Origin: Moritella sp. PE36
GTDB lineage: Bacteria > Pseudomonadota > Gammaproteobacteria > Enterobacterales > Moritellaceae
Length of the DNA: 64,000 bases
Assembly (NCBI RefSeq): GCF_000170855.1
Contig: NZ_ABCQ01000002.1
Location: 186,001-250,000, forward strand
Direction of reading: 5' to 3'
In this document: positions 31,971 to 62,776 of the stretch, piece by piece
Numbering within the stretch: position 1 is the stretch's first letter
How the letters are laid out: each line of letters starts with the position of its first letter
Program-made: the position numbers and the translations under genes
Notes under the pieces: model-generated
Database searches by the model: none
Told to the model about the DNA's origin: nothing
What the model saw: only the letters and a program-made list of their open reading frames with translations

Positions 31971-31998
31971 ACTATTTCCATGAAACTAGAAATATAGA
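31971..31998. promoter_or_regulatory. ArsR-type operator 1 upstream of the glutathione synthetase gene
   Basis: TATTTC (31973-31978), 10-base spacer, GAAATATA (31989-31996); an exact match to the TATATTTC-N10-GAAATATA pattern except at two left outer bases. It is 55 bases upstream of the synthetase ATG. Confidence 0.7.
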
Positions 31999-32020
31999 TC
32001 AACTAATTTTAACTGTCAAA

Positions 32021-32046
32021 TATATTTCCATAAATGCAGAACTATA
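32021..32046. promoter_or_regulatory. ArsR-type operator 2 upstream of the glutathione synthetase gene
   Basis: TATATTTC (32021-32028), N10, GAACTATA (32039-32046); one mismatch to the consensus. It lies 42 bases beyond operator 1. Confidence 0.65.
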
Positions 32047-32155
32047 TGAAACACAAAAAAGACAAGGAATTAAAAACACCACTCAGAATAGGTGGTGTAA
32101 AAGCTTAATAAAAACAATAGTTAAAACCATCATTTAAAAAACAGTTAAAAATGTA

Positions 32156-32500
32156 CTAACACTGCTTTTCGTTACCAATGCTGTCGTTGCTGTCATTGCA
32201 AATAGTGTTCTTCACTTCATCAATACAACATTCATCTTGTAAAAAACCAATCACAGATTGTAATTTGTCATATTCAGCCACACAGTACAAGGTACGTCCT
32301 TCACGGCGCTGTGACAGTAATCCTGCAGACGCTAAGCTAGAAATATGGTGTGATAACGTCGACCCTGGAATGGATAATTGTGATTGCAAACCACCCACAG
32401 CAATACCTTGATATCCGGCACGAATAATACTTTTAAAAATAGCTAATCGTGTTGGATGCCCCAGTTCTTTCAGCGCTTTCGCAATTACATCAATATCCAT
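32156..32500 (-). CDS. ArsR-family metalloregulator
   Basis: 114 residues. Winged helix-turn-helix: LGHPTRLAIFKSIIRAGYQG, then the recognition region SIPGSTLSHHISSLASAGLL and the wing RREGRTLYCV. Sensing is likely through C-terminal cysteines: Cys91-Cys92 (DECCIDEV), Cys101 and Cys114; the classical ELCVCDL site of ArsR is absent. In the metal-free state it should repress its targets and release them when metal or metalloid (arsenic, antimony and other thiophilic ions are candidates) binds. An operator with the same pattern as those at the synthetase and permease genes is just upstream (32532-32557). GGAG ribosome site before the ATG. Confidence 0.88.
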   Translation of the reverse strand: MDIDVIAKALKELGHPTRLAIFKSIIRAGYQGIAVGGLQSQLSIPGSTLSHHISSLASAGLLSQRREGRTLYCVAEYDKLQSVIGFLQDECCIDEVKNTICNDSNDSIGNEKQC

Positions 32501-32531
32501 TATTATATCTCCACCATATCCGCTAACAACA

Positions 32532-32557
32532 TATATTTCGATACTAGCAGAAACATA
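32532..32557. promoter_or_regulatory. ArsR-type operator upstream of the arsR gene
   Basis: TATATTTC (32532-32539), N10, GAAACATA (32550-32557); one mismatch. It is 32 bases upstream of the arsR ATG, so autorepression is expected. Confidence 0.7.
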
Positions 32558-32596
32558 TTCACAGCACCAATAGTTAACGAGATAACAACAGACGAA

Positions 32597-33562
32597 TTAA
32601 TCCGTACGATTAGTGATACTTGTATTACCGGTTACTTTCAAAACCAGTTTTTCACTGATTTCTTGCTTTAATTCATCAAGCCACTCATAACGTTTACGAT
32701 ACATTGCACGTTTGCTACGTTTAAGATCTTCCGGTGATTTTCTCACTTCAAGCAAATCGAGTTGATACAGATTTCTGTTATATTTAGTCGCACCTAGCGA
32801 CTCCCAATGATTGTTATAATTTGTTTTAACTTTATCATTACCACTATAACGTTTTGCTGTGTACATATGCGCTTCACTAGTGACAAGTAGAAGCTGGTTA
32901 ACATCCCAAACATTAGCAATAATAGTCAGTATTTTAACCATCAGATCTTTAGGTCTCTGACCAAAATGTTGTTTCGTAAAATACTTAATTTTATCGTTAA
33001 CTTCAAGCCCGCTTTTCGGTCCCTGGATACCGCCAACCGTAATCGTTCGACCAGTCACTGCATCATCAAAAATGCTGAAAGTAATAGAGTAAAAAAGATT
33101 ACCATTCGTATCCAGCAACTTCATGCACAAGTCCCCCTCTTTGTGATTTGGTGCATAATAGCCAAGCGTCACACGGTATTCATCTTCTCCAACAGTAAAT
33201 TTGGTTACTTCGATTCCCTGACTTTTTTCATAAATAGCAAGTCCAGTGTGCGCAGGTAAACATTGACTAATAAAGCGATAATGCCCAACCACTAATTTAG
33301 TGCGACGTGCAATCCCATTACCCATATGAAGATAAGGACGAAATATTTTCCCCAAAAAACGCACATCTTGCTGTAATAATAACTGGAGAAAAGAAGAATC
33401 AATACCACGCTGAAACTGACGAAAATACGGATAATAAATTCTTGCGCGCAATACAAATTTAGAACGATAGCTTTTCTGCTTCTGTTTTAAATTAGAACAC
33501 TGATTCTCGCTCGAATCTGGGTAGGCAAGCCAACTTAACTCTCGGATACTTTTACTGTGCAT
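32597..33562 (-). CDS. VirK/YbjX family (DUF535) protein
   Basis: 321 residues from the ATG at 33562 (AAGG 8 bases upstream; the earlier GTG at 33586 is less likely). Family signatures: a central LVVGHYRFI segment, VTLGYYAPNHKEGDLCMKLL, TVGGIQGPKSG (about 200-210) and the C-terminal KRAMYRKRYEWLDELKQEI. VirK/YbjX proteins are cytosolic or envelope-associated proteins of unclear biochemical role linked to resistance to antimicrobial peptides and PhoP control in enterics. A second copy is at 44954-45892. It lies next to arsR but shows no operator of that type. Confidence 0.8.
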   Translation of the reverse strand: MHSKSIRELSWLAYPDSSENQCSNLKQKQKSYRSKFVLRARIYYPYFRQFQRGIDSSFLQLLLQQDVRFLGKIFRPYLHMGNGIARRTKLVVGHYRFISQCLPAHTGLAIYEKSQGIEVTKFTVGEDEYRVTLGYYAPNHKEGDLCMKLLDTNGNLFYSITFSIFDDAVTGRTITVGGIQGPKSGLEVNDKIKYFTKQHFGQRPKDLMVKILTIIANVWDVNQLLLVTSEAHMYTAKRYSGNDKVKTNYNNHWESLGATKYNRNLYQLDLLEVRKSPEDLKRSKRAMYRKRYEWLDELKQEISEKLVLKVTGNTSITNRTD

Positions 33563-33740
33563 TCTTGATACCTTAATTATGGACACTACTCATAAAATAT
33601 TTAAGTTCCATCACACCAACTACGGTTTTTAGTTTCGCGGCTAAATTTGATTACAACAAAAATTAGCACACGACTAAGCAGGGGAAATGACTTTACTACT
33701 CTAAATTAGTGGCCATATATACACTCAAAATACCTAATCG

Positions 33741-33782
33741 GAAATAAAAAGACTGTAAGCGTATGTCAATACACTTACAGTC
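33741..33782 (-). terminator. Terminator after the DUF2237 gene
   Basis: GACTGTAAG (33751-33759) and CTTACAGTC (33774-33782) form a stem extended by GTAT/ATAC past one mismatch; on the minus strand it is followed by TTTTTATTTC. Confidence 0.8.
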
Positions 33783-33828
33783 TCAAAGGCATTTACAGTG
33801 AAAATACTAAGGTAATATCCTTAATTGA

Positions 33829-34206
33829 TTAACTCAAATCCATGGTATAGCGTTTAAGTAATTCCATTGGCACGATCTCTAATGCACGTATATGGGTTCT
33901 TTTTAAATACACTCTCGGCGCCATCTTATCTTCTAACGCTTGTAACCAGCGCGCGGCACACAAGCACCAACGATCACCCGCTCGCAAACCGTGAAAACCA
34001 GATTCTGGCACTGGGGTTGATAAATCATTACCTTTAAAACGAGAGTATTCTAAAAATTCAGCCGACACTTCAATGCACACCGTATGTGAACCCGCATCTT
34101 GGCTGCAGGTATTACAGGCACCATCACGATAAAAACCAGTCATAGGATCATCGCCACATAATTCCAACGCTTCGCCAAATACATTGACTGAATCATACAT
34201 TTCCAT
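33829..34206 (-). CDS. DUF2237 family protein
   Basis: 125 residues. It contains all the family landmarks: NVFGEALELCGDDPMTGFYR, ACNTCSQDAGSHTVC, GNDLSTPVPESGFHGLRAGD and WCLCAARWLQALE. The paired CxxC-like and WCLCA cysteines are conserved in the family, so a metal or redox role is possible; biochemical function is unknown. Followed by a strong terminator, so probably transcribed alone. Confidence 0.88.
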   Translation of the reverse strand: MEMYDSVNVFGEALELCGDDPMTGFYRDGACNTCSQDAGSHTVCIEVSAEFLEYSRFKGNDLSTPVPESGFHGLRAGDRWCLCAARWLQALEDKMAPRVYLKRTHIRALEIVPMELLKRYTMDLS

Positions 34207-34332
34207 TACAAACGCCTTTTATAGTAAGAGTTAGATTACTTAAAATTAAAGTAAAGTTGAAACTTGATAACCCTAGCACTTATTATTTTAACCGTCTATG
34301 GTGCTAATTTGATGATGTCATTACGCTGCCAT

Positions 34333-34392
34333 TAGCAATCGCGTAAATAGCCTAGCAATCGTGTAAATAGTCTAACAATCACTTATAATGAC
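34333..34392. repeat. 20-bp tandem repeat upstream of the hydrolase gene
   Basis: TAGCAATCGCGTAAATAGCC, TAGCAATCGTGTAAATAGTC and a weaker TAACAATCACTTATAATGAC: three consecutive 20-bp units. The last unit carries a TATAAT-like -10, so the repeat overlaps the likely promoter of the 34442 gene. Confidence 0.7.
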
Positions 34393-34441
34393 CTTTTAAT
34401 GCGTCCTTGCGCATAGATACTATTCACGGTATAGGAAGATC

Positions 34442-35080
34442 ATGGAACTCATTTATAACGGCCCTGTTGATGGCCCATTATTTGTATTTGCTCACGGTGC
34501 TGGCGCGCCTGCGAGTGCTGACTTTATGGAAACCATCGCCAAAGGATTAGCCTTACAGGGAATACGCGTCGCACGTTTCAATTTTCCTTATATGCAGCAA
34601 CGTGTTGATAATGGTACTCGCCGACCACCAGAGCGTGCGCCGAAACTAATCGCGCAGTACCAACAGCTTATTGCCAGCATTGACCAACCTATGGTGATTG
34701 GTGGCAAATCAATGGGTGGACGCATGGCCAGTCTAGTGGCATCCGATCCAACCACAGATGAGTTATCCGTTAATTCAAAAATAAAAGGCATCGCCTGTTT
34801 AGGTTTTCCTTTTCATCCCGCCAATAAACCCGAAACATTACGCACCGAGCACTTCCCCTTGATTAAACAAGCGGTTTTTATTGCTCAAGGTGAGCGAGAC
34901 AAATTAGGGTCCAAAGAAGACGTGGCGAGTTATGGCTTACCAGATAATATTGAATGGCTATGGCTAGAAGATGGCGATCATGATTTAAAACCAAGAGTAA
35001 AAAGTGGTTTTACCCATCAAGCACACCTGCAGAAAACCATCATCAGCATGGCCGAGTTCATCAAAAAAGCACTGCTTTAA
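34442..35080 (+). CDS. Alpha/beta-hydrolase, KANL3/Tex30-like family
   Basis: 212 residues. N-terminal LFVFAHGAGAPASADFM is the oxyanion-side loop; the nucleophile elbow is GGKSMGGRMASL with Ser at about residue 86; the catalytic His is in DGDHDLKPR (about 180), and an Asp is at GERDKLGS. These bacterial members are small soluble serine hydrolases of unassigned substrate. AGGA lies close before the ATG. Preceded by a 20-bp tandem repeat. Confidence 0.85.
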   Translation: MELIYNGPVDGPLFVFAHGAGAPASADFMETIAKGLALQGIRVARFNFPYMQQRVDNGTRRPPERAPKLIAQYQQLIASIDQPMVIGGKSMGGRMASLVASDPTTDELSVNSKIKGIACLGFPFHPANKPETLRTEHFPLIKQAVFIAQGERDKLGSKEDVASYGLPDNIEWLWLEDGDHDLKPRVKSGFTHQAHLQKTIISMAEFIKKALL

Positions 35081-35334
35081 CACGATACTACCGTATCCAA
35101 CGTTGAGGGGAGAGCATCCCTATCCGACCAAATCAATTCTCAGGTCTCGACATTGACCACAATGCCTGGAAAAAGAAGAAATAAGAAATAGGAGAGATGA
35201 TTAGCTAACTGAGGAATATTAATCCCCACTTTATTGGCTTCTAAGGTGAAAGTGCTAATGTTAGTTAAATAGGATCGGTGTTTTTATTGCACCTGTGATT
35301 TGGCTTTGTTAGTCCTTCATGGCGGTTTAACATT

Positions 35335-36054
35335 ATGATTAAAATAATATACGGTTTAATTGTCTCGGCACTGATGGCACTGCTTATTTCCTGTGGCAGC
35401 GATAACATCTCAAGCGAACGAGTACCTAATGGGGTATTTAATGGTGTATTAGCGGGAGAAGATACCGTCGTATTAGTGTGGGACAATACTGCACATGTAT
35501 TAGCAACGGATGATTCCCAGTTGGAGATTAACTTTACCGTATCAAGATTAAGCTCAACCGGCAATAATTCTGATGTGACCACTAGACACGTCACTGGTCA
35601 CGGGCGTAAGTATGACAGTAATAACGATACATTCAGTGAGATTACTATTTCAGGTTCATTTACTCATACCGACATGAATACGACCTTTGAGCTGACCATT
35701 ACAGACGCTAATAATAGTGAAGATAAACTGTTCCTGTTAACCTCCTCGACATCGAATGATAGTGCAAGCTTTGCGCTGTTAGATGGGACTTATTTAATAC
35801 GGGATATAGGTGGTTTAATGGTCATTGATGATATGGGTATTATCAGCGGCTCCGATAACAATGATTGTGAATATGAAGGTGATGTCGAGATCCCAGATCC
35901 AAACATCAACATCTATCAAGTTTTTATGACTGTGCGTAATTGTTCATTGAATGGCCACTATACTGGGTTAGGGACTCTTGATCAGTCGATTGATACTTTT
36001 ATGTTTAGTATGATTAATACCGAGCGGTTACTTCAATATAACTTGCAACGATAA
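35335..36054 (+). CDS. Putative lipoprotein, unknown function
   Basis: 239 residues. The signal peptide ends with the lipobox LISC, Cys20, followed by GSDN; the +2 Gly suggests outer-membrane sorting. The mature part is rich in Asn, Asp, Ser and Thr with a beta-strand pattern and contains three Cys. I recognise no domain. It is isolated: the hydrolase gene ends 250 bases before, and a bidirectional terminator follows. Confidence 0.7.
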   Translation: MIKIIYGLIVSALMALLISCGSDNISSERVPNGVFNGVLAGEDTVVLVWDNTAHVLATDDSQLEINFTVSRLSSTGNNSDVTTRHVTGHGRKYDSNNDTFSEITISGSFTHTDMNTTFELTITDANNSEDKLFLLTSSTSNDSASFALLDGTYLIRDIGGLMVIDDMGIISGSDNNDCEYEGDVEIPDPNINIYQVFMTVRNCSLNGHYTGLGTLDQSIDTFMFSMINTERLLQYNLQR

Positions 36055-36096
36055 CAGTAATATAGATTACAACAATAACAGCCAATAGTTGATAAA

Positions 36097-36124
36097 GCCC
36101 ATTGCTGTAACTAAGGCAATGGGC
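36097..36124. terminator. Bidirectional terminator
   Basis: GCCCATTGC (36097-36105) and GCAATGGGC (36116-36124): perfect 9-bp stem, 10-base loop, with TTTATC on the minus-strand exit side. It separates the convergent lipoprotein and FMN-reductase genes. Confidence 0.75.
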
Positions 36125-36136
36125 CCGTAACCGCTA

Positions 36137-36670
36137 TTACTTCAAATGATCCAAATGACTGACAGCGTCTTGCAGTTGCTCATTAAGTTCTGCATGTTTC
36201 AATATTTTTTTCTCGCTATCGAAATTGTCATAAAAACTGGGAATAGCCAGGCTAGCTTTAACAACCCCACTAAAATAAGGGGCCGATTGTACTGCGGTCG
36301 CTAATACTGACGTACCACCCATCGAACCTGGTGATGTTGATAACAGCACCATGGGTTTGTTTTGAAAAACTTTCGGTTCGATACGCGAGCACCAGTCAAA
36401 AATGTTTTTATAAGCCACAGTATAAGAGCCATTATGTTCCGCAAAGGCAATAAGAATGCCGCAACTTCCCGCTATTTTAGCCAAAAAATCTTTAGCCAGT
36501 TGTGGATGACCGATCTCTTCTTCTTTATCCTGACCGTACAAAGGTAATTCATAATCATTGAGGTCTAATATTTCAACCTGTACATTTTTCAATAAGCTGG
36601 CGCTGTACTCAACCAGTTGCCTGTTAATAGATTTGCTATGATTGGTTGCCGCGAACGCAATAATTTTCAT
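36137..36670 (-). CDS. NAD(P)H-dependent FMN reductase family protein
   Basis: 177 residues from the ATG at 36670, with AGGTGG close upstream (an in-frame GTG at 36679 is inside that ribosome site). The flavodoxin-like fold is shown by IIAFAATNHSKSINRQLVEY, EHNGSYTVAYKNIFDWCSRI and LLSTSPGSMGGTSVL (FMN phosphate loop and the flavin-binding second loop). It reduces FMN or quinones with NAD(P)H; the specific role is unknown. It is followed 110 bases away by an Lrp-type gene on the same strand. Confidence 0.85.
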   Translation of the reverse strand: MKIIAFAATNHSKSINRQLVEYSASLLKNVQVEILDLNDYELPLYGQDKEEEIGHPQLAKDFLAKIAGSCGILIAFAEHNGSYTVAYKNIFDWCSRIEPKVFQNKPMVLLSTSPGSMGGTSVLATAVQSAPYFSGVVKASLAIPSFYDNFDSEKKILKHAELNEQLQDAVSHLDHLK

Positions 36671-36782
36671 ATTTTCCACCTGTATTTTTCACCTGTATGC
36701 TCCACAGGAAATAGTGAAACCAAGTTAATTCTGGTACAACAATTGGCAGAGGTCAAAATGAAATACTCAATATGTCCTATCG

Positions 36783-37247
36783 CTAATCGGGGATAATCGC
36801 ACAGGTATCGTATTTGACTCGGTTCATCGAAATCTGGGTTTTAAAATTCTTCATATTCGGTTCACTGTATAAGTGACGTAGGCAAAAATCATCATACTGC
36901 TGCATATTTTCAACTGTCACCAATAACACAAAATCCACGTCACCCGTGACTTGATAACATTCTCTGACTTCGCTGGCCAAGCGGATATGTTTAATAAAAC
37001 CATCATTCAGATCTAATCTATCTCGTTCCATTTCCACATTTACAATCATGTGTAAACACGCACCGAGTTTGTCTTGGTTTAGCAATACCACCTGGCTGGC
37101 TATAATACCTTCACTTTTTAACTTCTTCACACGCTTAAAACAAGCCGGAGGCGATAAACCAATCAGAGAAGCAAGTTGGAGATTACTCACCGAGGCATCT
37201 TGCTGTAACTGGCGCAAAATGGCTTTATCAATCCGATCGAGAAACAT
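36783..37247 (-). CDS. Lrp/AsnC-family transcriptional regulator
   Basis: 154 residues. N-terminal helix-turn-helix: QQDASVSNLQLASLIGLSPP followed by ACFKRVKKLKSEGII. C-terminal RAM (effector) domain: VNVEMERDRLDLNDGF and CYQVTGDVDFVLLVTV. It probably senses an amino acid or small metabolite. The gene is divergent from a membrane protein gene (37380), about 130 bases away, which is the likely target. Confidence 0.92.
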   Translation of the reverse strand: MFLDRIDKAILRQLQQDASVSNLQLASLIGLSPPACFKRVKKLKSEGIIASQVVLLNQDKLGACLHMIVNVEMERDRLDLNDGFIKHIRLASEVRECYQVTGDVDFVLLVTVENMQQYDDFCLRHLYSEPNMKNFKTQISMNRVKYDTCAIIPD

Positions 37248-37379
37248 AATTAACTTAACCTTGGTAAATAAGAAATATATAGAAACATTTGTACCTGATT
37301 ATTGAAATAATTTCTAGCAGCTTGCATATAATAGACGCCATAAAACATTAATTAACCTCACAGACATGGAAACAGTCAC

Positions 37380-38333
37380 ATGCTAACAAGCTTAAAATCT
37401 TTATTTCTCGACGTCGGGCGTGTTTATCTCACACTGCTTAAAGTCATGGTACCCGCGCTTATTATCGTTAAAGTATTAGATATGATTGGCGGTACTGTGT
37501 GGTTAGGAAAGCTGTTAGCGCCGCTGATGAGCTTGGTTGGTTTACCCGAAGCGATGGGCTTGGTATGGGCAACTGCTATGCTCACCAATATCTATACGGG
37601 AATGGCGGTATTTTTTGATTTAGCTGGCGACAATCCACTCACCGTCGCCCAAGTATCAGTCCTTGGCATCATGATGCTACTCGCACATGCATTACCTATT
37701 GAAGGTGCTGTCGCTAAACTATCGGGTATCTCTTGGCGCGTAACCTTACCACTACGCATTGGCGGCGGTTTTATACTGGGTATGATCACCAATCAAGTGT
37801 ATCTACTGGGAAACTGGCAGCAGCAACCTGCCGAGATCGTTTGGCAACCGACCCCCGCCTCATCAAGTTTGTTTGATTGGGGAATAGCGCAATTAACCAT
37901 GTTGGCCTCTATCTTTTTTATCATTGCCGCATTGATGATATTACTGCGGTTATTAAAATGGTGTGGTATCGAAAAACTGATCCAAGCCCTGCTATCGCCG
38001 TTTTTAAAAGCCTTAACCATAGGTAAAGAAACCACCAATGTCTGTGTGATTGGTTTAGTTTTGGGCTTAAGTTTTGGTGCCGGATTATTAATTGATGAGG
38101 CGCGTACAGGTAAAATCAGTAAGCGTGATATTTTCCTCGCGGTATGCTTTTTAGGATTAACCCACAGCATTATTGAAGATACTATTTTGATCTTATTATT
38201 AGGTGCTGACTTGATGTCTGTTTTATGGGGGCGTTTGCTGTTTGGTTTTATTGTTATTGCAATATTAGCGCGTTTTATCGAGCAAAAATCTCCTTCCTGC
38301 TCGACCAATAAACCAATTGAAAAGGTTTCTTAA
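37380..38333 (+). CDS. Nucleoside-recognition (Gate) domain membrane protein
   Basis: 317 residues with about eight predicted membrane helices. The sequence AMLTNIYTGMAVFFDLAG and the SFGAGLLIDEARTGKISKRD loop are typical of the nucleoside-recognition domain permease-like family (SpmA/YjiH-like). It probably moves a small solute, possibly amino-acid related given the divergent Lrp gene. Substrate unknown. It ends 6 bases before the convergent ChaN-like gene. Confidence 0.78.
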   Translation: MLTSLKSLFLDVGRVYLTLLKVMVPALIIVKVLDMIGGTVWLGKLLAPLMSLVGLPEAMGLVWATAMLTNIYTGMAVFFDLAGDNPLTVAQVSVLGIMMLLAHALPIEGAVAKLSGISWRVTLPLRIGGGFILGMITNQVYLLGNWQQQPAEIVWQPTPASSSLFDWGIAQLTMLASIFFIIAALMILLRLLKWCGIEKLIQALLSPFLKALTIGKETTNVCVIGLVLGLSFGAGLLIDEARTGKISKRDIFLAVCFLGLTHSIIEDTILILLLGADLMSVLWGRLLFGFIVIAILARFIEQKSPSCSTNKPIEKVS

Positions 38334-38339
38334 ACGAGT

Positions 38340-39368
38340 TTACTCAATACAAGTTAACTTGTCATTACGCTTAGATAAGCCCTTAAATGATGCCATCATG
38401 TTGGCTTCTTTCACGAACTTCTTAGGTGGCGTAATCACCTGAAGGCGATAGTCGCTTGATGACGTTGCAGTTGACGTCATCGCGCTATTCACGTTTACAG
38501 GCGTAACAATAACCACGTTCAACTCGGGTGCGCGCGCCAAAATACTGGCCGCCGTCCCCAAGCCATTCTCGGTATGGAATTTACCGGCAATATGCATGAC
38601 TTGTTTATGGGGGTTAGTCGCCAAATAGTTAACAATACTTTCAGCCATGGTTTCATCCCACGTCACTTGCGAAGCAAATTTATGCTCATTTTGGCTTTCA
38701 TCACCATGATGCATCGACGCCATAAAATGGGTTTTGTACGGTGAGTCTTGGGTATTGATATTCGCCGCTAACCACGTGCGTTCATCCGCAGGTAATTTGT
38801 CCACATAGCTAATACCTTCTTTGCCGATACAACGGATGATATTTTTCGGTGCATTGGCAGCGATAATATCTATTTCCTTGGTCTTTGCTAGCTCAACAAG
38901 CGGACGATAATCACTGTTATAATTTGGCCAAGTATTCGCTTGTTTTATTAGCGTCCCTTCCCCTATTTCACCCGCTAAGTAAGCATTCACAATCGCTTGT
39001 TTATCGCGAGTAAACTGCTCCATTGATAGGGTCACATTGCCGTTAGCCGCAATCATGGCTTGTAATAATTCAGTTTGAAAGCGATGAATACCAGCATGAG
39101 TATGCCACTCACCCACCAGCACCACATCGGCATTTTGAATGTCTGCAACAAAGTCTTTTAAGTTAATATCCTGACCCGATGGCGACTGTAAATCATAGTC
39201 ATAGTAAGTAGTCACTTCCGATGAGATGAACGTTTTATCCACCACTCCCAAGGAGGGATTGATTGTGCAACCAGCAAGTATGGAAACAAGTACGGCACTG
39301 ATACAACTGCGTTTATAATTTTTGAATACAGGTACTGATGGAGAAGATAGTTGAGAAAAAGTAAACAT
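38340..39368 (-). CDS. ChaN-family haem-binding lipoprotein
   Basis: 342 residues from the ATG at 39368, selected because AGGGTG lies 6 bases upstream and the lipobox SILAGC (Cys34) fits a type II signal peptide; the longer frame starting at 39518 would run through the LysR gene end. The domain begins DVVLVGEWHTHAGIHRFQTE and carries the SMEQF and NAPKNIIRCIGKEG segments, plus HIAGKFHTENGLG near the C-terminus, all ChaN-like. ChaN proteins bind haem dimers in the periplasm for iron uptake. No other haem transport genes are visible here. Confidence 0.85.
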   Translation of the reverse strand: MFTFSQLSSPSVPVFKNYKRSCISAVLVSILAGCTINPSLGVVDKTFISSEVTTYYDYDLQSPSGQDINLKDFVADIQNADVVLVGEWHTHAGIHRFQTELLQAMIAANGNVTLSMEQFTRDKQAIVNAYLAGEIGEGTLIKQANTWPNYNSDYRPLVELAKTKEIDIIAANAPKNIIRCIGKEGISYVDKLPADERTWLAANINTQDSPYKTHFMASMHHGDESQNEHKFASQVTWDETMAESIVNYLATNPHKQVMHIAGKFHTENGLGTAASILARAPELNVVIVTPVNVNSAMTSTATSSSDYRLQVITPPKKFVKEANMMASFKGLSKRNDKLTCIE

Positions 39369-39486
39369 ATAACACCCTAATAATAGCGACCACCAATAGT
39401 AATGCATCTCACTTACAATGACAAATGGCGTATTATATCGCCCTTTAAATAATAAGCATTCATACAGGGCTCGATTTAAAATTCGC

Positions 39487-40362: not shown

Positions 40363-40367
40363 TACGT

Positions 40368-41057: not shown

Positions 41058-41129
41058 TAACAGAATTCTATAATCAGATAAAGACCGCTATTATCCGTGT
41101 TCTCATGATTAAGTAAAATAATTAATCTG

Positions 41130-44760: not shown

Positions 44761-44953
44761 ATATTCTTAGTTAAAAATAACTATTTGCTATAAATTTACA
44801 CAATTGAATAAAGATACCCAAACAAACATAAACCAAGCATGACGGTCTTACTCAAACTCCGAATTGTCACCGATCGGACAGTGCAGAAATATTAAATACA
44901 GTACAGTTGAAATACCAACCATTAACGCTCTTTTTACTAGGAATAACAAACTG

Positions 44954-45892
44954 ATGTCTACAACTAACATCTTTGACTTCGCCGATCAGATTTACCCTAA
45001 TGCAAAAGGGATGAGAAAAATACAAAAGAAAGGGCGCTTCTATTTTTGGGCGGTAACAAACAGTAAAGCTGTCAATGCGATGGTGACTCTTTTTTCCCGT
45101 GAAAATTTAAAGCCAATATTAAAAAACACCCCAGAGGTAATAGAAAAGCCGCTAAAACCTTATCTTTGTGTTAACTGGTCAAGTACGGAACGTGTTGAGC
45201 ACTTAACACAACATTACCAGTTTATTGATGATACTTTTGGGAAACACGCGAGTACTATTGTTTCTGATGATGGTGTGACCATCTTAGCGTTCAAAAGTTT
45301 AAGCGAACAAACATATCGAATTCAGCTACATCGAGGCACAAGCCGAGAAGGTGGTATTGGTATTCGTTTAGTTAACGATAAGGACCAAAGTGTCTATGCT
45401 TTAGCATGTAATATCTCCGGTACACATACTAAAACAATGCATATTGGTATGTTACAAGGTCCTCGTGATTCAGTAGAAAATCGCCATGCGCTGATTAAAG
45501 AATTAACCAAATCACTGCACGGTTTACGCACTAAATCATTATTGGTTGAAATGGCGTTAATGCTGTCCCGTATTTTAGGGATCAGTGAAGTAAAAGCGAT
45601 TTCTAACAAAGGCCATATTTATCAAGCTATACGTTATATTGGCTCAAAACGAAACTCAGTGACCTTTGATTACGATGGTTTGTGGGACGAGTTTGAAGCG
45701 ACAAAACTCGACCCATACATGTTTGGCTTGTCAGTGTTTACCCCACGAAAAGATCCGCTAACATTGAAAAAAACCAAACGAAAAATGTACACGAAGCGAT
45801 ACCAATGGCTAGATGACACTGAAGTAGAGATGGCGACAAATTTAGCGCCTTGGCTGGTAAATCCAATAATGCAAAACGAACAAGCAGCCTAA
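44954..45892 (+). CDS. VirK/YbjX family (DUF535) protein
   Basis: 312 residues from the ATG at 44954 (MSTTNIFDFADQIYPNAKGM). A 30-codon longer frame begins with TTG and is less likely. Family segments: LCVNWSSTERVEHLTQHYQF, QLHRGTSREGGIGIRLVND, HIGMLQGPRDSVENRHALIK and the C-terminal KRKMYTKRYQWLDDTEVEM. Clearly a paralogue of the gene at 32597-33562, but quite diverged. Function as for that family: envelope or antimicrobial-peptide resistance, unproven here. It has the RstA-box-like repeat in its promoter. Confidence 0.82.
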   Translation: MSTTNIFDFADQIYPNAKGMRKIQKKGRFYFWAVTNSKAVNAMVTLFSRENLKPILKNTPEVIEKPLKPYLCVNWSSTERVEHLTQHYQFIDDTFGKHASTIVSDDGVTILAFKSLSEQTYRIQLHRGTSREGGIGIRLVNDKDQSVYALACNISGTHTKTMHIGMLQGPRDSVENRHALIKELTKSLHGLRTKSLLVEMALMLSRILGISEVKAISNKGHIYQAIRYIGSKRNSVTFDYDGLWDEFEATKLDPYMFGLSVFTPRKDPLTLKKTKRKMYTKRYQWLDDTEVEMATNLAPWLVNPIMQNEQAA

Positions 45893-53675: not shown

Positions 53676-53858
53676 ACAAAAGAATCAGTTAGCCATAATA
53701 ACGTAAATTTTCTTGTCGTGATTTTAAAAGTTAACTATCTGACCTTGCTCATTAAATAATGATATTGCGATTTAGCTAGCTGGAACGCCGCTTATTAGTC
53801 TTTTTTCATGTGCTAAAATTGATATCAACTGAGCAAACAGTGTGAAAGTAGGTGAACG

Positions 53859-54680: not shown

Positions 54681-54949
54681 GTAAATAAATTTAAACGTTA
54701 GATAAAAGTGCAGGTTTACAACATCTAAATAAACACAGATAAATAAGGAGTAAATTGCACTTTAATTTCTGACAACCAATTAGAATAAACATACTTACAT
54801 ACAGTTTAACTAATAAAAACAACAAGATATAAAGTATTTTATTGTTTTCATTCTAATGATAACATTTACTTCTTAAGCAATAGACAACCGACCTATTTAA
54901 AGTATGATGCTGCAAAAACTCATATCCCCATACTCTAAATAAGGTTAAT

Positions 54950-56884: not shown

Positions 56885-56904
56885 CACTTCACTTAACGCT
56901 TATT

Positions 56905-57384
56905 ATGCTTAGATTTTTACTTTGTATAATAATATTAACACCATCATTGGCAAATGCCCTTGATGGTGTTTTTATTATGGATAATGCCACAGAGACACAG
57001 TACAGCTTGCATACTAAAGGTGTATATAAAGTTTATTATAAGATAAAAACTAAAGAGCGAATTAATACTAAAAACAAACAAACACTTAAGCTAAGTTCGA
57101 AAAAAAATACTGCTAAGCAAGTGCTTCAATATAAATCCGGTAGCCTTTCATTTGCGAATGTAGAAATCCATTTTAAATTAGCTTATTACTATCGAGGTGT
57201 TTTTTATATGGAGCAAGCAAGAGGTGTTATAGACGGAGTTCATTTTAACACTCGAGAACTTTCATTTAATGATACGAAGCAACACCTTAATGCTGAGCGG
57301 ATTGTATTTACGAAACAGAATAAAATTTCAATTACCAAACAATTTTCTAGATTAGTACCTAATGATCTAGTATTACAGCAATAG
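56905..57384 (+). CDS. Small secreted protein, unknown function
   Basis: 159 residues with a signal peptide (MLRFLLCIIILTPSLANA). The mature part is basic and Lys/Thr/Tyr-rich, with beta-strand character; no family recognised. It follows the large lipoprotein closely and may be its partner. The hairpin of an intrinsic terminator lies inside its signal-peptide region (56937-56976), so expression would depend on read-through or on a promoter inside the upstream gene. Confidence 0.6.
   Translation: MLRFLLCIIILTPSLANALDGVFIMDNATETQYSLHTKGVYKVYYKIKTKERINTKNKQTLKLSSKKNTAKQVLQYKSGSLSFANVEIHFKLAYYYRGVFYMEQARGVIDGVHFNTRELSFNDTKQHLNAERIVFTKQNKISITKQFSRLVPNDLVLQQ
56937..56976 (+). terminator. Intrinsic terminator inside the start of the small secreted gene
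   Basis: AACACCATCA (56937-56946) and TGATGGTGTT (56961-56970) form a perfect 10-bp stem; the loop contains a further GGC/GCC pairing. TTTTTATT follows directly. It lies about 50 bases past the stop of the large lipoprotein gene. Confidence 0.8.
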
Positions 57385-57515
57385 CCCAAAAAAAAATCGT
57401 AAACCTGCCCATTTTAATAAAATTTTAGCTAAACCCAATTACCAGCCATTTCTATCGTCCATAATTAAATTGATTGAAGCGTTACTTCGCGTTCACTTAC
57501 CCGCAAGGATCAGCA

Positions 57516-58037
57516 ATGGACAATACAGTCAAAAAAATCGGACTCAGTGGCTCCTGCTATTGGTGTACCGAGGCTATCTTTTTATCGCTGCGCGGTGTGA
57601 CGAAAGTAGAACAAGGCTGGTTATCTTCTTTTGCTGACGATGATTGGTTTTCAGAAGGTATTATTGTCACGTTCATGCCCGACGTGATTAGTTTAAAAAA
57701 TATCATATCCATTCATTTACACACTCATAGCTGTGCCAAAGCCCATTCCATGCGCGATAAATATCGCAGCGCCGTCTATGCCATGGATCCTTATCAGAAC
57801 ACTGAAATAAAACATAATCTAGCATTATTACAAGATGAATTTGAACTGCCTTTGATCACCCGCGCTTATGCATTTAATCAATTTAAACCGTCAGATGGAT
57901 CCATGCAAAACTATTATTACAGCGATCCACAACGGCCATTTTGTGAAAACATCATCACCCCTAAATTAAAGAAATTATTCGCTAGCCATGCTCATTTAAT
58001 GAATAAAGACAAATTGGCAACAACACTCAGCGCATAA
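57516..58037 (+). CDS. MsrA-like peptide methionine sulfoxide reductase (divergent)
   Basis: 173 residues from the ATG at 57516 with AAGGA close upstream. The catalytic centre reads GLSGSCYWCTEAIFLSLRGV, matching the usual GGCFWGVE site with one Cys as nucleophile; WFSEGIIVTFMPDVISLKNI and MRDKYRSAVYA also match MsrA (compare GTQYRSAIY). Missing or altered are the GGY segment and the HD/ND motif. It should reduce methionine-S-sulfoxide in proteins, but the divergence could mean a different substrate. Confidence 0.68.
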   Translation: MDNTVKKIGLSGSCYWCTEAIFLSLRGVTKVEQGWLSSFADDDWFSEGIIVTFMPDVISLKNIISIHLHTHSCAKAHSMRDKYRSAVYAMDPYQNTEIKHNLALLQDEFELPLITRAYAFNQFKPSDGSMQNYYYSDPQRPFCENIITPKLKKLFASHAHLMNKDKLATTLSA

Positions 58038-58061
58038 ATATAGCGACGATTAAAAAATAAT

Positions 58062-58230
58062 TGGTGGTTAAACTAGCAACCATCAGTGCGCTAACAAGCA
58101 GCTTGGATGAAGGTGGTTAATTTGAAGTTAAAGTACCAGTAGCAAATGTAGATACCGGTATGTCGAACCGTAATGACCGCCTTAATTCATTATTCTTTAA
58201 CTCTGCAATCCAACTATTGCGATTAGCGGC
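58062..58230 (+). pseudogene. YceI-family fragment with in-frame stop
   Basis: One plus-strand frame reads KLATISALTSSLDEGG, then a TAA stop, then FEVKVPVANVDTGMSNRNDR and LNSLFFNSA. This is the central region of a YceI-type (lipid-binding, beta-barrel) periplasmic protein, where a conserved (V)DTG-x-x-x-RN-x-R segment is typical. There is no start codon or signal peptide and the sequence ends within about 55 residues. Judged a degraded remnant. Confidence 0.55.
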
Positions 58231-58269
58231 CTTTGAAATAGCGGTTCACCCTTTTCCAGCCCCTCATAT

Positions 58270-59052
58270 TTAAACTGACTGTTTCATATATTGTTTCGGT
58301 GGTCTGCCTAACGTCTTCTTAAAAAAGGTAATAAAAGCACTGACCGACTCATAACCTAAATCTTCTGATACTCGTTGTACCGATTCATTTGATGACAGTT
58401 TTTGCAATGCCATTACCAAGTGTAGTTGCCCACGCCAACGACCAAATGTCATCCCCACCTCTTGCTTCACCAATCGAGAAAATGTTCTTTCACTCATCGC
58501 AAATAACGACGCCCACTCCCCGACTGTTTTGCGGTCGGCTGGATTAGCCAATAACAAATGAGCAATCTTATTGAGTCTCGGTTCTGCAGGGATAGGAAAA
58601 TCAAAGTGCTCTTTCGGCATACGGATCAGCTCATCAATCAATACTTGCGCGAGTCTCACTGTCGCGTCATCAGATGCATAGTCCTGCTTCTTACTTGCTA
58701 AACTAATAATGAGTTCACGCAGTAAAGGCGAGATTGATAATGTGCAACTTTTATCGGGTATGCCGGGAATATCAGGATCAACAAATAACATACAGACATC
58801 TGAACTTAACGAAATATGATTGCTGTGTGACACTTGGCTTGGGATCCATACCGCACAATTTGCCGGCACCATCCATATGGCATCCGCAATTGAACAACGG
58901 ACAAAACCTGTTAACGGCATCACTAATTGACACTTCACGTGTTGATGAACAGGCATTTCCAGACCACGTTCAAGACTCGACGTACGTAATGCATTAACAC
59001 TTTCGACGTACTCATCCGAATCAAAATCTAAAGCAATATTAGGTAACGTCAT
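58270..59052 (-). CDS. AraC-family regulator, NimR-like
   Basis: 260 residues. N-terminal cupin (MPVHQHVKCQLVMPLTGFVR and WMVPANCAVWIPSQVSHSNH); C-terminal helix-turn-helix with VGEWASLFAMSERTFSRLVK and VSEDLGYESVSAFITFFKKT. E. coli NimR (YeaM) has the same design and controls the divergent exporter NimT. Here the CynX/NimT-like MFS gene is also divergent, about 100 bases away, so the pair is probably equivalent. Confidence 0.85.
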   Translation of the reverse strand: MTLPNIALDFDSDEYVESVNALRTSSLERGLEMPVHQHVKCQLVMPLTGFVRCSIADAIWMVPANCAVWIPSQVSHSNHISLSSDVCMLFVDPDIPGIPDKSCTLSISPLLRELIISLASKKQDYASDDATVRLAQVLIDELIRMPKEHFDFPIPAEPRLNKIAHLLLANPADRKTVGEWASLFAMSERTFSRLVKQEVGMTFGRWRGQLHLVMALQKLSSNESVQRVSEDLGYESVSAFITFFKKTLGRPPKQYMKQSV

Positions 59053-59148
59053 ACACTGTCCGTATTTAGCAATAAAATGTCAATATACACAAATTCAGTA
59101 TAATCGGATATGGATAATATAGTGGCATAGCTTCAAGAGGACGCAAAT

Positions 59149-60420
59149 ATGTCACACAATTCTGCACGCAACATTGTTCAGCCCGCACTGGTTATTATCG
59201 GCATTTTACTTATAGCCAGTAATCTCCGAGGTCCTATAACAGGCATAGGACCAATCTTAGCATTCATCTCTGACGATCTTAATTTGTCAGCCACGCAAGC
59301 CGGTATGTTAACCACACTACCACTGCTCGCCTTTGCTATTTTTTCACCTCTTTCATCGGGACTAGCTCGTAAGATCGGCCTTGAACCATCATTAATGTTG
59401 GCACTGCTTGCTATCACTAGCGGTATTGTTATCCGCTCTGCAGGCTCAACACTAACCCTGTACTTAGGCACTTGTATCATCGGCATCGGTATTGCGATAG
59501 GCAATGTACTCTTACCCAGCTTGCTAAAACGCGACTTTCCCAACAAAGTACCGACATTGACCGCTATTTATGTATTAATGATGGGGGTTGGCGCAACCAT
59601 TAGTTCAAGCACCACAATCCCGATGCTTAACCTGGCTAATTCGCTTAATGTTACGGCGATCCCAGATTGGGCATTCGCATTAGCCACTACGCTCGTCCTG
59701 CCTCTTATCACGATGCTAGTTTGGCTACCACAAACAAGCCATCACACAAAACCGGCTACGGACACTGCCGACATTGATAGCCATAGTTATATGTGGCGTT
59801 CTGCAGCCGCTTGGCAAGTCTCTGGGTTCTTGGCGTTAAACTCATTTATTATGTACGCCTTTATTGCTTGGTTACCGAGTATCTTAGTGAGCAATGGTTA
59901 TTCAGAACATCAAGCGGGTTACATCCATGGGATTCTACAACTCGCCTCTGCAGCACCGGCTATCGTATTAATTCCACTCATGGCAAAGGTAAAAGATAAA
60001 CGTGTACTTAGCTTAATAATGACAATACTGGCATTCATTGGGATCACCGGGTTACTCATGATGCCCCAACACGCGGTCGCCTGGGTGATGATGCTTGGTT
60101 TTAGCTGTGGGGGTGGTTTTATTCTCGGATTATCCTTTGTCGGCCTGCGTACTCATAACGCACACCAAGCAGCCGCATTGTCAGGGATGGCACAATGCAT
60201 AGGTTATCTATTTGCAGCAACGGGGCCGATTATTTTTGGTTCACTGCATGAAACAACAGGTAGTTGGGATATGCCCTTAATCATCACTGCTGGTATCAGT
60301 ATTATATGGGCAAGCTTAGCGGTGAAGGCAGGCAGATCAGCGGTCATTACCCACCAGCTCAATCCATCGGATAATCTACCAAGCGAGCAAACGAGTAATC
60401 CAGTGATCAATGAACTTTAG
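59149..60420 (+). CDS. CynX/NimT-family MFS transporter
   Basis: 423 residues with 12 helices. The family opening ASNLRGPITGIGPILAFISD and LPLLAFAIFSPLSSGLARKI are characteristic of CynX/NimT. NimT of E. coli exports 2-nitroimidazole and is repressed by NimR. The divergent NimR-like gene supports that role; the natural substrate is unknown. AAGAGGACGC lies before the ATG. It ends 4 bases from the convergent tag gene. Confidence 0.87.
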   Translation: MSHNSARNIVQPALVIIGILLIASNLRGPITGIGPILAFISDDLNLSATQAGMLTTLPLLAFAIFSPLSSGLARKIGLEPSLMLALLAITSGIVIRSAGSTLTLYLGTCIIGIGIAIGNVLLPSLLKRDFPNKVPTLTAIYVLMMGVGATISSSTTIPMLNLANSLNVTAIPDWAFALATTLVLPLITMLVWLPQTSHHTKPATDTADIDSHSYMWRSAAAWQVSGFLALNSFIMYAFIAWLPSILVSNGYSEHQAGYIHGILQLASAAPAIVLIPLMAKVKDKRVLSLIMTILAFIGITGLLMMPQHAVAWVMMLGFSCGGGFILGLSFVGLRTHNAHQAAALSGMAQCIGYLFAATGPIIFGSLHETTGSWDMPLIITAGISIIWASLAVKAGRSAVITHQLNPSDNLPSEQTSNPVINEL

Positions 60421-60424
60421 CTAA

Positions 60425-60988
60425 TTATTTCAACTCGTGATGACGGAAGCAATCGGTGGTGTGATCGTTAACCATGCCGATTGCTTGCATAAAGGCATAA
60501 CAGATCGTGGGCCCGACAAAGTTAAAACCCCGCTTCTTCAAATCTTTACTCATGGCTTCTGAGAGTTCAGTTTTAGCGGGTATTCCAGCCTGTGAGGGTA
60601 AATCGTTTTGCAGGGTAACACCGTTAACAAAAGCCCAAATATAAGCATCAAACGAACCAAACTCGGCTTGAATATTCAAAAAGCCCTTGGCATTTTTTAT
60701 CGCTGATCTTATCTTTAAGGTATTACGGACAATCCCCTCATTAGCAAGTAGGCGCTTAACATCGTCTTCGGTGTAATTGGCGATAATCGTATAATCAAAC
60801 TGATGAAAAGCGTTTCGATAGTTTTCACGTTTTCTTAATATGGTGATCCAGCTGAGTCCGGCTTGCGCACCTTCTAAGATCAGAAATTCAAATAAGCGTT
60901 GTTCGTCATGAACTGGCAGGCCCCACTCTTCATCATGATAAGCTACGTATAATGGGTCTTCCCCACACCAAGTACATCTGTTTTTCAT
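60425..60988 (-). CDS. tag: DNA-3-methyladenine glycosylase I
   Basis: 187 residues from the ATG at 60988 (AAGGA 7 bases upstream; the frame extends further only to a weaker start). It matches Tag of E. coli along its length: CTWCGEDPLYVAYHDEEWG (zinc Cys and His), LEGAQAGLSWITILRKRENY with the catalytic Glu, and RGFNFVGPTICYAFMQAIG; zinc ligands near the C-terminus in DHTTDCFRHHE. It removes 3-methyladenine from DNA to start base-excision repair. Confidence 0.95.
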   Translation of the reverse strand: MKNRCTWCGEDPLYVAYHDEEWGLPVHDEQRLFEFLILEGAQAGLSWITILRKRENYRNAFHQFDYTIIANYTEDDVKRLLANEGIVRNTLKIRSAIKNAKGFLNIQAEFGSFDAYIWAFVNGVTLQNDLPSQAGIPAKTELSEAMSKDLKKRGFNFVGPTICYAFMQAIGMVNDHTTDCFRHHELK

Positions 60989-61016
60989 TATTTGTCCTTT
61001 AGTCGCGATAAACAAA

Positions 61017-61541
61017 TCAGCAGCCAGCTGTTTCAACAGTAAATTCTTGAGTCTCGCTGGTATGGTGATATTCGGCGTAACATAAATCGTTGCTCAAATC
61101 CCCTGTGCCATAACCAATACGCGAGTAGCCATTATCTTCGAAAACGGTAATTTCAGAATAAGTCGCGGTTCGAGAGATATTATTTTTAATCACATCCAGT
61201 GGGGCGCCTAATTCTAGGAAGGTCTCAATAAAGTAGGTATTTGGCGTTAGGGCTTCACTTTTCGTTTCTGGATAGCCACGATAAAACTGATAATCCCCAT
61301 AGTCGGTTGCGATGGTGACATCATCACCCAATAGATTGTCGATTTGGGATTTCATATGCAGCAATCGCACAGTCGCCCTCAGGCTACCGTGAAAATTTTC
61401 AACCGTTTCTTTTTTTGCATCATCTTTTAAATCAATAAAACGTGGTACAGCCGTTGCCGTAAGCACACCAAGCACAATAATAGTAATAACCAATTCAATT
61501 AGCGTAAAACCCTTATTCTTTTTAGACGCAGTAAAGTCCAT
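61017..61541 (-). CDS. Type IV pilin-like protein (prepilin)
   Basis: 174 residues. A class III signal KKNKG-FTLIELVITIIVLG with cleavage after Gly11 and Glu5 of the mature protein is present; the hydrophobic N-terminal helix follows. A Cys near 152 and the C-terminal Cys174 can form the usual disulfide loop. MSHA-type or general pseudopilin. No other pilus gene lies nearby, so it is an isolated minor pilin or an orphan of a larger system. The ribosome site GAGAG is supplied by the last copy of a 20-bp repeat. Confidence 0.83.
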   Translation of the reverse strand: MDFTASKKNKGFTLIELVITIIVLGVLTATAVPRFIDLKDDAKKETVENFHGSLRATVRLLHMKSQIDNLLGDDVTIATDYGDYQFYRGYPETKSEALTPNTYFIETFLELGAPLDVIKNNISRTATYSEITVFEDNGYSRIGYGTGDLSNDLCYAEYHHTSETQEFTVETAGC

Positions 61542-61546
61542 TTTCT

Positions 61547-61606
61547 CTCTCTGTTAAACGTTTGTGCTCTCTGTTAGAGATTTGTACTCTCTGTTAGAAA
61601 TTTGCA
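61547..61606. repeat. 20-bp tandem repeat upstream of the pilin gene
   Basis: CTCTCTGTTAAACGTTTGTG, CTCTCTGTTAGAGATTTGTA, CTCTCTGTTAGAAATTTGCA: three units. On the minus strand each holds an AACAGAGAG that resembles a Shine-Dalgarno sequence; the copy next to the gene serves as its ribosome site. Confidence 0.75.
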
Positions 61607-61711
61607 ACAGTATGCCCCATAAAATACTTAGTACCATATGTTAATTACAAAATAATTAATTCATCTTTAACTATTTTACTATGTGATTAATAATAGCCTG
61701 ATTTCTTTAAG

Positions 61712-61753
61712 CAAAAATAAAAAAGCGCCACACCGATAGCGATGTCACGCTTT
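61712..61753 (-). terminator. Terminator after the permease gene
   Basis: On the minus strand AAAGCGTGACATCG (61753-61740) pairs with CGGTGTGGCGCTTT (61735-61722), mostly paired with two G-U pairs and one mismatch, followed by TTTTATTTTTG. Confidence 0.8.
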
Positions 61754-61771
61754 CTTAACTAAAAATATCGC

Positions 61772-62689
61772 TTAGAAAATGAACTGATATAGAAAACCAG
61801 CACCTACAGCCATCCCTAAGATAACGAACAAGAACGCGGCGATCATTTGGTTTTTAAAGATAGATTTAAGCAAAATAACTTCTGTTAAACTCGCGCCTGC
61901 ACTGCCAATGATTAATGCCATGACTGCGCCAAGACTCATACCTTTTGCCGCTAACGCTGCACTTAATGGGATCACTGCTTCTGCTCGAATATAAAGTGGG
62001 ATCCCAATGACTGCAGCAACCGGAATAGCGAACGGGTTATCTTCACTCGCGATACGCGCAACAAATTCCGTTGGCATAAAACCGTAAATCATTGAGCCCA
62101 GCGCAATACCACCGATTAAATAAGGTAACACTTTTTTAAAGTCAGCCCAGGTACTGTGCCAGATCTTCATCCACTTGCTTACCGGTGCTTGTTTACCGCC
62201 ACACGCAGATGCACACCCTTTGGCTTCTGGTTCAATATACGCTTGTGGTTTGACGTATTTTTCAAAACCCAGTTTTTCTAAGGTATAACCAGCGATAACT
62301 GATACGCTCATTGCAATAGTAAAGTAAAACACTGTTATCTTCATACCAAAGGTAACGGCAAACAACCCGATGATAATGGGGTTTAATAGCGGGCTGGCAA
62401 ACAAGAACACCATCATAGGACCGAACCCTGCTTTGGCGCGTAACAAACCTTTCAGGAAAGGAATTGTAGAGCATGAACAGAACGGTGTGATCGCCCCTAA
62501 CAAACCGGCAACGATATAACCTTTACCGTTTTTACCACTCAGGATACTTTGGATCTTGGCTGGCGGGATATACTCTTGCAGCACACCGACTAGATAACTA
62601 ATCAGTAAAAAAAGCACCGTTAACTCTGCGGCTAAAAAAGCAAACATACCTAAGGTATCCATCACCATTGCTTGTGTAATGTTGAACAT
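61772..62689 (-). CDS. ArsP/YraQ-type permease (DUF318 family)
   Basis: 305 residues from the ATG at 62689. About eight membrane helices. The signature AITPFCSCSTIPFLKGLLRA (about 77-96), with the paired Cys in CSCS, and VIGIPLYIRAEAVIPLSAAL identify the ArsP/YraQ permease family; a GCASACGGK loop with more Cys lies in the middle (about 163-171). ArsP exports trivalent organoarsenicals; others may handle metal ions. Two ArsR-type operators overlap its promoter, exactly the pattern used at the arsR and glutathione synthetase genes 30 kb away. Export of a metal- or metalloid-related compound is therefore likely. Confidence 0.82.
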   Translation of the reverse strand: MFNITQAMVMDTLGMFAFLAAELTVLFLLISYLVGVLQEYIPPAKIQSILSGKNGKGYIVAGLLGAITPFCSCSTIPFLKGLLRAKAGFGPMMVFLFASPLLNPIIIGLFAVTFGMKITVFYFTIAMSVSVIAGYTLEKLGFEKYVKPQAYIEPEAKGCASACGGKQAPVSKWMKIWHSTWADFKKVLPYLIGGIALGSMIYGFMPTEFVARIASEDNPFAIPVAAVIGIPLYIRAEAVIPLSAALAAKGMSLGAVMALIIGSAGASLTEVILLKSIFKNQMIAAFLFVILGMAVGAGFLYQFIF

Positions 62690-62701
62690 TATTTTTATCT
62701 C

Positions 62702-62727
62702 TATATTTCTGGAATGTTCGAAATATA
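62702..62727. promoter_or_regulatory. ArsR-type operator 1 upstream of the permease gene
   Basis: TATATTTC (62702-62709), spacer of 10, GAAATATA (62720-62727): the perfect form of the inverted repeat, 12 bases from the ATG. Confidence 0.8.
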
Positions 62728-62752
62728 AACCTATCAATAAATCATGTCAAAC

Positions 62753-62776
62753 TATTTCCATAAATATCGAAATATA
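62753..62776. promoter_or_regulatory. ArsR-type operator 2 upstream of the permease gene
   Basis: TATTTC (62753-62758), spacer of 10, GAAATATA (62769-62776). The sequence around its left arm (AACTATTTCCAT) is the same as at the synthetase operator 1. Confidence 0.7.

Follow-up and report, generated by a model that had tools for sequence, protein, structure and literature searches.

A stretch of 64 kb from Moritella sp. PE36 (the window) contains five 26 bp palindromic sequences at three loci, and these are probably operators of an SpArsR-like ArsR repressor encoded beside them. The repressor would control its own gene (arsR), the gene of an ArsP-type permease (arsP) and the gene of a eukaryotic-type glutathione synthetase (GSS, gene gss), and its inducer would be a trivalent arsenical. 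A comparable arrangement is also seen in other marine bacteria. The ArsR/SmtB family characteristically uses 26 bp dyads such as these, and SmtB-style naming of operators gives 12-2-12. The three genes are:

30473–31918, minus strand: gss, eukaryotic-type glutathione synthetase family, 481 amino acids, start ATG at 31918
32156–32500, minus strand: arsR, SpArsR-like ArsR/SmtB repressor, 114 amino acids, NF033788 at 60.6 bits (cut-off 55)
61772–62692, minus strand: arsP, ArsP/DUF318-type permease, 306 amino acids, start ATG at 62692, PF03773 ArsP_1 at 177.5 bits (cut-off 32.3)

The initial annotation of the window described an inverted repeat, TATATTTC-N10-GAAATATA, at five positions, and all five copies are present where it placed them. 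Compared as 26-mers with the consensus and scored with a weight matrix, they are:

31971–31996: operator G1, 2 mismatches, 22.2 bits, covers the -10 box of the gss promoter
32021–32046: operator G2, 1 mismatch, 22.4 bits, 1 bp upstream of the gss -35 box and 50 bp from G1
32532–32557: operator R, 1 mismatch, 22.6 bits, 2 bp upstream of the arsR -35-like box
62702–62727: operator P1, 0 mismatches, 28.5 bits, covers the -10 box of the arsP promoter
62751–62776: operator P2, 2 mismatches, 26.4 bits, abuts the arsP -35 box, 49 bp from P1

These are the only places in the window that match the 26-mer with three or fewer mismatches; the expected number is 1.01 ± 1.05, and one of 100 shuffled sequences reaches five. 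The weight matrix, trained on 42 unique sites from arsR and arsP loci outside the genus, finds exactly five sites in the window at 22.2–28.5 bits, the next best being at 8.7 bits. Three sites of at least 14 bits are found altogether in 40 Markov shuffles of the window, with a best score of 21.2. The training sites come from other genomes and were chosen by three or fewer mismatches to the window consensus, so the matrix test within the window is not fully independent. The exact form TATTTC-N10-GAAATA occurs at three places in the genome of 5,223,088 bases, all of them among the five sites. A form restricted at the inner bases, with one mismatch or less, occurs at seven places in the genome, five of which are these sites. 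The other two one-mismatch places that resemble operators are at G000:C96:41004 and G000:C107:32459. The bare core TTTC-N10-GAA was discarded as evidence, as it is at chance level (12 matches in the window, 12.2 expected). What distinguishes the five sites is their position, their pairing and the detail of their sequence, and not rarity of the loose consensus.

The promoter-like sequences at the three loci are:

31991–32019, minus strand: gss sigma-70-like promoter, TTGACA-17-TATATT, 11 of 12 matches
62722–62750, minus strand: arsP sigma-70-like promoter, TTGACA-17-TATATT, 11 of 12 matches, at the same offset in other Moritella
32502–32529, minus strand: arsR promoter-like sequence, TTGTTA-16-TATAAT, 10 of 12 matches

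The gss and arsP promoters have the same design, with one operator that ends 0–1 bp before the -35 box and a second that contains the -10 box; arsR has a single operator before its -35-like box. The tandem operators enclose the -35 box, and one of them overlies the -10 box, a layout that fits repression through blockage of RNA polymerase. Comparison of loci shows that the arrangement recurs. Among 61 unique pairs of sites less than 250 bp apart, 41 show a spacing of 49–52 bp, and a perfect TTGACA is present in the gap of 27 of 53 unique tandem pairs, 0–3 bp from the first operator (0.8 in shuffled gaps). Related genomes recur among the unique pairs, so these counts do not represent independent events. 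The number of promoter-like sites in the gss upstream stretch is not above that of shuffled sequences (4 compared with 3.4); the arsP upstream stretch has 2 (1.5 in shuffles).

Loci from other families support a regulon shared by arsR, the ArsP permease gene and the GSS gene, as judged by matrix sites of at least 14 bits. The set of GSS loci consists of 80 named loci (870 kb in total) kept of 168 found with GSS, and has neither a 60-mer nor an exact site in common with the training loci. It contains 53 sites, held by 28 of the 80 loci. Manual assignment of the sites to target genes placed every site except one (L163, position 4060) before arsR, arsP, GSS or an operon of two ATP-binding cassette (ABC) genes and GSS; the site in L177, 391 bp upstream of the ABC gene, might instead act on the gene to its opposite side. 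A site is found 400 bp or less upstream of GSS in 17 of the 80 named loci, and in 23 of 101 rows with 21 rows added; L149 also holds a site, and was left out of the count for its uncertain GSS start. Some GSS loci carry sites at arsP-GSS or ABC-GSS operons. Loci L105 and L037 represent one genome. A further 30 arsR loci, from other genomes, likewise have no 60-mer in common with the training loci; of their 49 sites, 3 are identical to one used in training, and locus L189 repeats the earlier locus L012 (one Moritella dasanensis genome). Of the 30, 27 have a site no more than 300 bp from arsR, and loci that lack arsP and GSS within 1.5 kb are among these. The three-locus regulon proposed in the initial annotation is supported by the same operator before arsR, before arsP and in part before GSS in relatives. 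The genes also occur together in a comparison of 119 related genomes, counted by hand with thresholds of our own setting (ArsR at 100 bits or more, arsP at E <= 1e-60). ArsR is present in 35 of the 119; arsP is found in 30 of these 35 and in none of the 84 without ArsR, and ArsR is found in 18 of 19 genomes with GSS and 17 of 100 without it.

The ArsR protein exceeds the cut-off of PF12840 (43.3, cut-off 27) and is just under that of PF01022 (20.0, cut-off 22). Its best match in the PDB is 6j05, 'Transcriptional regulator ArsR', which we take to be AfArsR of Acidithiobacillus ferrooxidans. The Cys-Cys of this structure aligns with C91-C92, i.e., vicinal cysteines are present at the aligned place of AfArsR C95/C96. 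The third cysteine of AfArsR, Cys102, is 6 residues after the second, whereas C101 of the window ArsR is 9 residues after. All 30 of 30 aligned rows share cysteines C73, C91 and C92; conservation does not extend to C101 or C114. In the initial annotation Cys91, Cys92, Cys101 and Cys114 were singled out. The first pair proves to be family-wide, but the second is local, and the invariant C73 had been omitted. It also gave the classical ELCVCD site as absent, which is correct: the motif, the metal site of the DNA-binding domain in R773-type ArsR, is absent from the sequence, and assignment to that type was rejected.

SpArsR of Shewanella putrefaciens 200 is described as a methylarsenite-specific repressor with Cys101/Cys102 and without the third cysteine of AfArsR (PMC13236881, PMC11868830). 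The Shewanella profunda ortholog of the window ArsR (L139) has cysteines at 83, 101 and 102, and because this layout matches the published Cys101/Cys102 the window ArsR was assigned to the SpArsR type. The lack of a third cysteine that marks the type does not hold here. Since C101 and C114 are present, the protein is termed SpArsR-like and selectivity for methylarsenite is not claimed. The permease gene arsP is reportedly a target of SpArsR, and an added cysteine is reported to make that repressor responsive to As(III). Seven Moritella without type-A GSS have no third cysteine within 12 residues of the pair.

The relation of ArsR to the operator at GSS was compared in 37 genomes hand-chosen from the 80 GSS loci, with ArsR matched at E <= 1e-15. 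The 22 genomes without an operator at GSS include L171 and L177, in which a site precedes the ABC genes, and L163, whose one site was left without an assigned gene. A third C-terminal cysteine was scored in genomes whose ArsR locus was retrieved (13 of the 15 chosen genomes with an operator at GSS and 15 of the 22 without), the two ABC-ABC-GSS operons being shown apart. It is present in 16 of 20 genomes with an operator at GSS, in 4 of 21 where GSS has no operator or which are Moritella without the type-A gene, in 1 of 7 with arsP-GSS clusters and in neither of 2 with ABC-ABC-GSS operons. This is a hint that the third cysteine may tend to accompany the GSS operator; the pattern follows descent in clusters, and loci of the Shewanella ANA-3 type depart from it.

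The ArsP sequence displays the motif PFCSCSTIP. It is below the equivalog cut-offs of the SO_0444 Cu/Zn efflux family (98.2, cut-off 300) and of SaoE (96, cut-off 325). ArsP_1 is a broad family, and ArsP of Campylobacter jejuni is a methylarsenite permease. The window protein is likened to the latter through the PF03773 domain, with PFCSCSTIP seen here; its substrate is predicted by homology. Matches to ArsP are present in 30 of the 119 genomes. In many of these arsP and arsR adjoin each other; in Moritella they are apart (30 kb in the window), yet both keep the operator. Operators are located on the arsP promoter both here and in relatives, where control by ArsR is predicted. The Moritella genome G004 has a second arsR-arsP pair (C1:2758302-2759644) that is 66% and 88% identical to the genes of the window.

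The GSS protein has the glutathione synthetase (GS) fold over its full length and is 96% identical to the synthetase of a Moritella sp. metagenome-assembled genome. It differs from the eukaryotic glutathione and homoglutathione synthetases (2hgs, 5oes, 3kal) in falling under the cut-off of the NCBIfam equivalog TIGR01986 (223.7, cut-off 329.8). The glutamate of gamma-Glu-Cys is reported to be held by R, E, two Q, N and Y residues (PMC5919673). Residues Q212, E215, N217, Q221, R268, Y271 and R109 of GSS are invariant in 30 of 30 rows, and alignment A1 has E at the position of Q212 in two distant rows. The gamma-Glu-Cys pocket, including the Arg on the Cys side (R109), thus appears to be kept, the matching of positions being our reading of the alignment. 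The glycine site is changed. The Ala-Ala of eukaryotic enzymes, which is Leu-Pro in homoglutathione synthetase, is His-Ser in the window GSS. His is present at the first position in 16 of 16 and 30 of 30 rows of two alignments and is almost always followed by Ser; among 101 rows there are 98 His-Ser, two His-Arg/Lys and one that is unreadable (L149). Both gshA and gshB are found in the same genome and GSS is additional to both, so a role in filling a gap in the canonical glutathione genes was rejected. A GSS homologue is present on 352 of 72,556 plasmid records, of which 208 are Escherichia, 102 Salmonella and 20 Klebsiella by the first word of the record. The homologue is annotated as 'glutathione synthase'. 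Of four plasmid stretches viewed (L185–L188), two adjoin IS26 and drug-resistance genes.

Several gene neighborhoods of GSS involve arsenic genes. In Shewanella sp. ANA-3 the GSS gene follows arsP, is divergent from arsR and adjoins genes for a molybdopterin oxidoreductase and an iron-sulfur protein (arrA/arrB by position), arsD and an ArsA-like open reading frame (by eye). The Aeromonas order is arsR-arsD-arsA-acr3-arsC-SigZ-like-GSS-permease, where arsC is of the glutaredoxin type and the SigZ-like factor is under its cut-off. A Citrobacter arsenatis plasmid has GSS in divergent orientation to an ArsR-like gene with arsC. An arsR-permease pair of a Salmonella plasmid (arsR 61% identical) has two operators of 28.8 and 25.2 bits, and the GSS gene, itself without an operator, is about 3 kb away. 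Two ABC half-transporter genes are directly before GSS in 14 of the 80 named loci, from Aliivibrio, Photobacterium, Enterovibrio and others (L136, L138, L145, L151, L152, L155, L159, L164, L171, L175, L177, L179, L180 and L182), and in L171 and L177 an ArsR-type operator precedes the first ABC gene; L154 has only one clear ABC half-transporter gene. A type-B GSS is flanked upstream by the extracytoplasmic function sigma factor SigZ and downstream by a PatB-like C-S lyase in L041, L043, L144, L166, L167 and L181 (the L041 lyase and the L043 sigma factor were identified by eye). The SigZ, C-S lyase and ABC neighbours would agree with a part for GSS in the synthesis and transport of thiol conjugates. 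In the Moritella genome itself acr3 is located elsewhere (C119), and ArsI, the C-As lyase, has no match in the genome with NF041414.

From these comparisons we infer the following course of events. Dimers of ArsR would bind the 26 bp sites. At the arsP and gss promoters two dimers, 49–50 bp apart, would bracket the -35 box, cover the -10 box and exclude RNA polymerase; at the arsR promoter the single site abutting the -35-like box would provide autoregulation. A trivalent arsenical, most likely methylarsenite, would bind the vicinal C91-C92 and release the repressor, and As(III) may also be an inducer because of the extra C-terminal cysteine. The induced permease would then export the arsenical, and the induced GSS would add an amino acid to gamma-Glu-Cys to yield more thiol that binds or escorts it.

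Several observations weigh against this interpretation or limit its novelty. Both the inducer and the substrate rest on homology. The initial annotation had pointed to a whole-genome scan with the motif, and in such a scan the exact form is confined to these loci, but the frequency of the loose consensus does not exceed that of its control. The 26-mer with three or fewer mismatches is found at 59 places compared with 76 for the reversed control, a 12-base form with one mismatch or less at 39 compared with 50, and for the form restricted at the inner bases the control has 15. The plain consensus was rejected as a genome-wide regulon finder on this basis, and the 59 and 76 are also what favors reading the five sites as chance AT-rich palindromes. 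That reading is nonetheless practically negligible, as placement, pairing and promoter design are conserved across families and genera. In the tandem gaps, 5-of-6 matches to TTGACA are present in 9, fewer than in shuffles (13.5), and 17 of 53 gaps have only 4 of 6 matches. There is no site of at least 14 bits anywhere in 52 of the 80 named GSS loci and none within 300 bp of arsR in 3 of the 30 further arsR loci (L193, L215, L217). As 52 loci are without a site and some GSS genes are located by SigZ, GSS is not linked to this ArsR everywhere, and SigZ is a second possible regulator of the family. ArsR is found in 15 of 15 chosen genomes with an operator at GSS but also in 21 of 22 without, and its presence fails as a predictor of the operator; genome G007 has arsR and GSS but no arsP match at E <= 1e-60. 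In E. coli, As(III) raises the level of GshB protein independently of ArsR (PMC12821715), so that thiol supply under arsenic needs no such wiring. The ArsR-ArsP half of the regulon is already known. The gene neighborhood is in print as well, since, by a figure legend, maps of the ars/arr modules of Shewanella ANA-3 and O23S and Aeromonas O23A show genes for a permease and for a glutathione synthetase next to ars genes (PMC6429310).

Other explanations concern the regulator, the signal and the product of GSS. The adjacency of SigZ to some GSS relatives would suit binding of the five sites by another regulator, with ArsR a mere neighbour or a co-regulated gene. This is most unlikely in view of the 27 of 30 further loci with a site before arsR, those without nearby arsP or GSS included, and of the typical ArsR/SmtB form of the dyads. 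A regulon that is real but responds to a different soft metal or metalloid or a thiol-reactive compound (Sb, Bi, Hg, Cu/Zn) would accord with the breadth of ArsP_1 and with the permease scores for the Cu/Zn and SaoE families, which are far below cut-off; the SpArsR type of the repressor and the presence of relatives of the module inside ars gene clusters make it unlikely. An even chance is given to the possibility that the regulon is real and GSS is a stress-inducible second synthetase of ordinary glutathione, which supports arsenate reduction and the formation of As-thiols. The matched and invariant glutamate pocket, the glutaredoxin-type arsC near the Aeromonas gene and the ArsR-independent rise of E. 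coli GshB are consistent with it, as is a nematode enzyme that still prefers glycine with altered acceptor residues (PMC5919673). On the other side are gshA and gshB, already in the genome, and the His-Ser in place of Ala-Ala at two residues that help to set the terminal amino acid. Rather unlikely is a GSS that joins gamma-Glu-Cys to one or more amino acids other than glycine, giving a dedicated, inducible glutathione analogue that serves under arsenical stress and is exported as a conjugate by the permease or the ABC pair. A GSS that runs backwards with arsenate in place of phosphate, splitting a glutathione-like peptide and promoting arsenate reduction, is very unlikely, as the sensor of the regulon is of the trivalent-organoarsenical type.

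Control of arsR, arsP and gss by ArsR, the interpretation favored here, most resembles the SpArsR-arsP system of S. putrefaciens 200, with a related ArsR (by way of the Shewanella relative L139) and the same kind of permease. It differs in that the regulon includes a eukaryotic-type GSS and that arsR and arsP are 30 kb apart. The sections of the Shewanella and Aeromonas module study cited above, including that on plasmid pSheB, discuss no operator, regulon or enzyme type (PMC6429310). No description of an ArsR regulon containing GSS was recognized in searches of open-licence papers. The combination had been presented in the initial annotation as one not known to be described, which stands for GSS as a member of the ArsR regulon but not for the ArsR-ArsP pair or for the gene neighborhood. 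What is new is GSS as a recurrent member of an SpArsR-arsP-type regulon, with a shared tandem-operator promoter.

Other features of the window include two DUF535 (PF04393) genes, one at 32597–33586 beside arsR and one at 44864–45892. By eye, positions 19342–22134 contain a row of dioxygenase, HD-domain and periplasmic binding protein genes that resembles an oxidative phosphonate-degradation set, and positions 1–7042 look like a portion of a gene cluster for type VI secretion.

With GSS as a member, a regulon of the organoarsenical type would gain an enzyme, beyond a pump. This would supply a context for the bacterial, and also plasmid-borne, branch of the eukaryotic-type glutathione synthetases, and the operator design may help to list targets in other genomes. 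The change at the acceptor site poses a concrete question, i.e., which amino acid GSS adds. If it is one other than glycine, bacteria would have an equivalent of the homoglutathione and phytochelatin chemistry of plants, placed under the control of an ArsR sensor.

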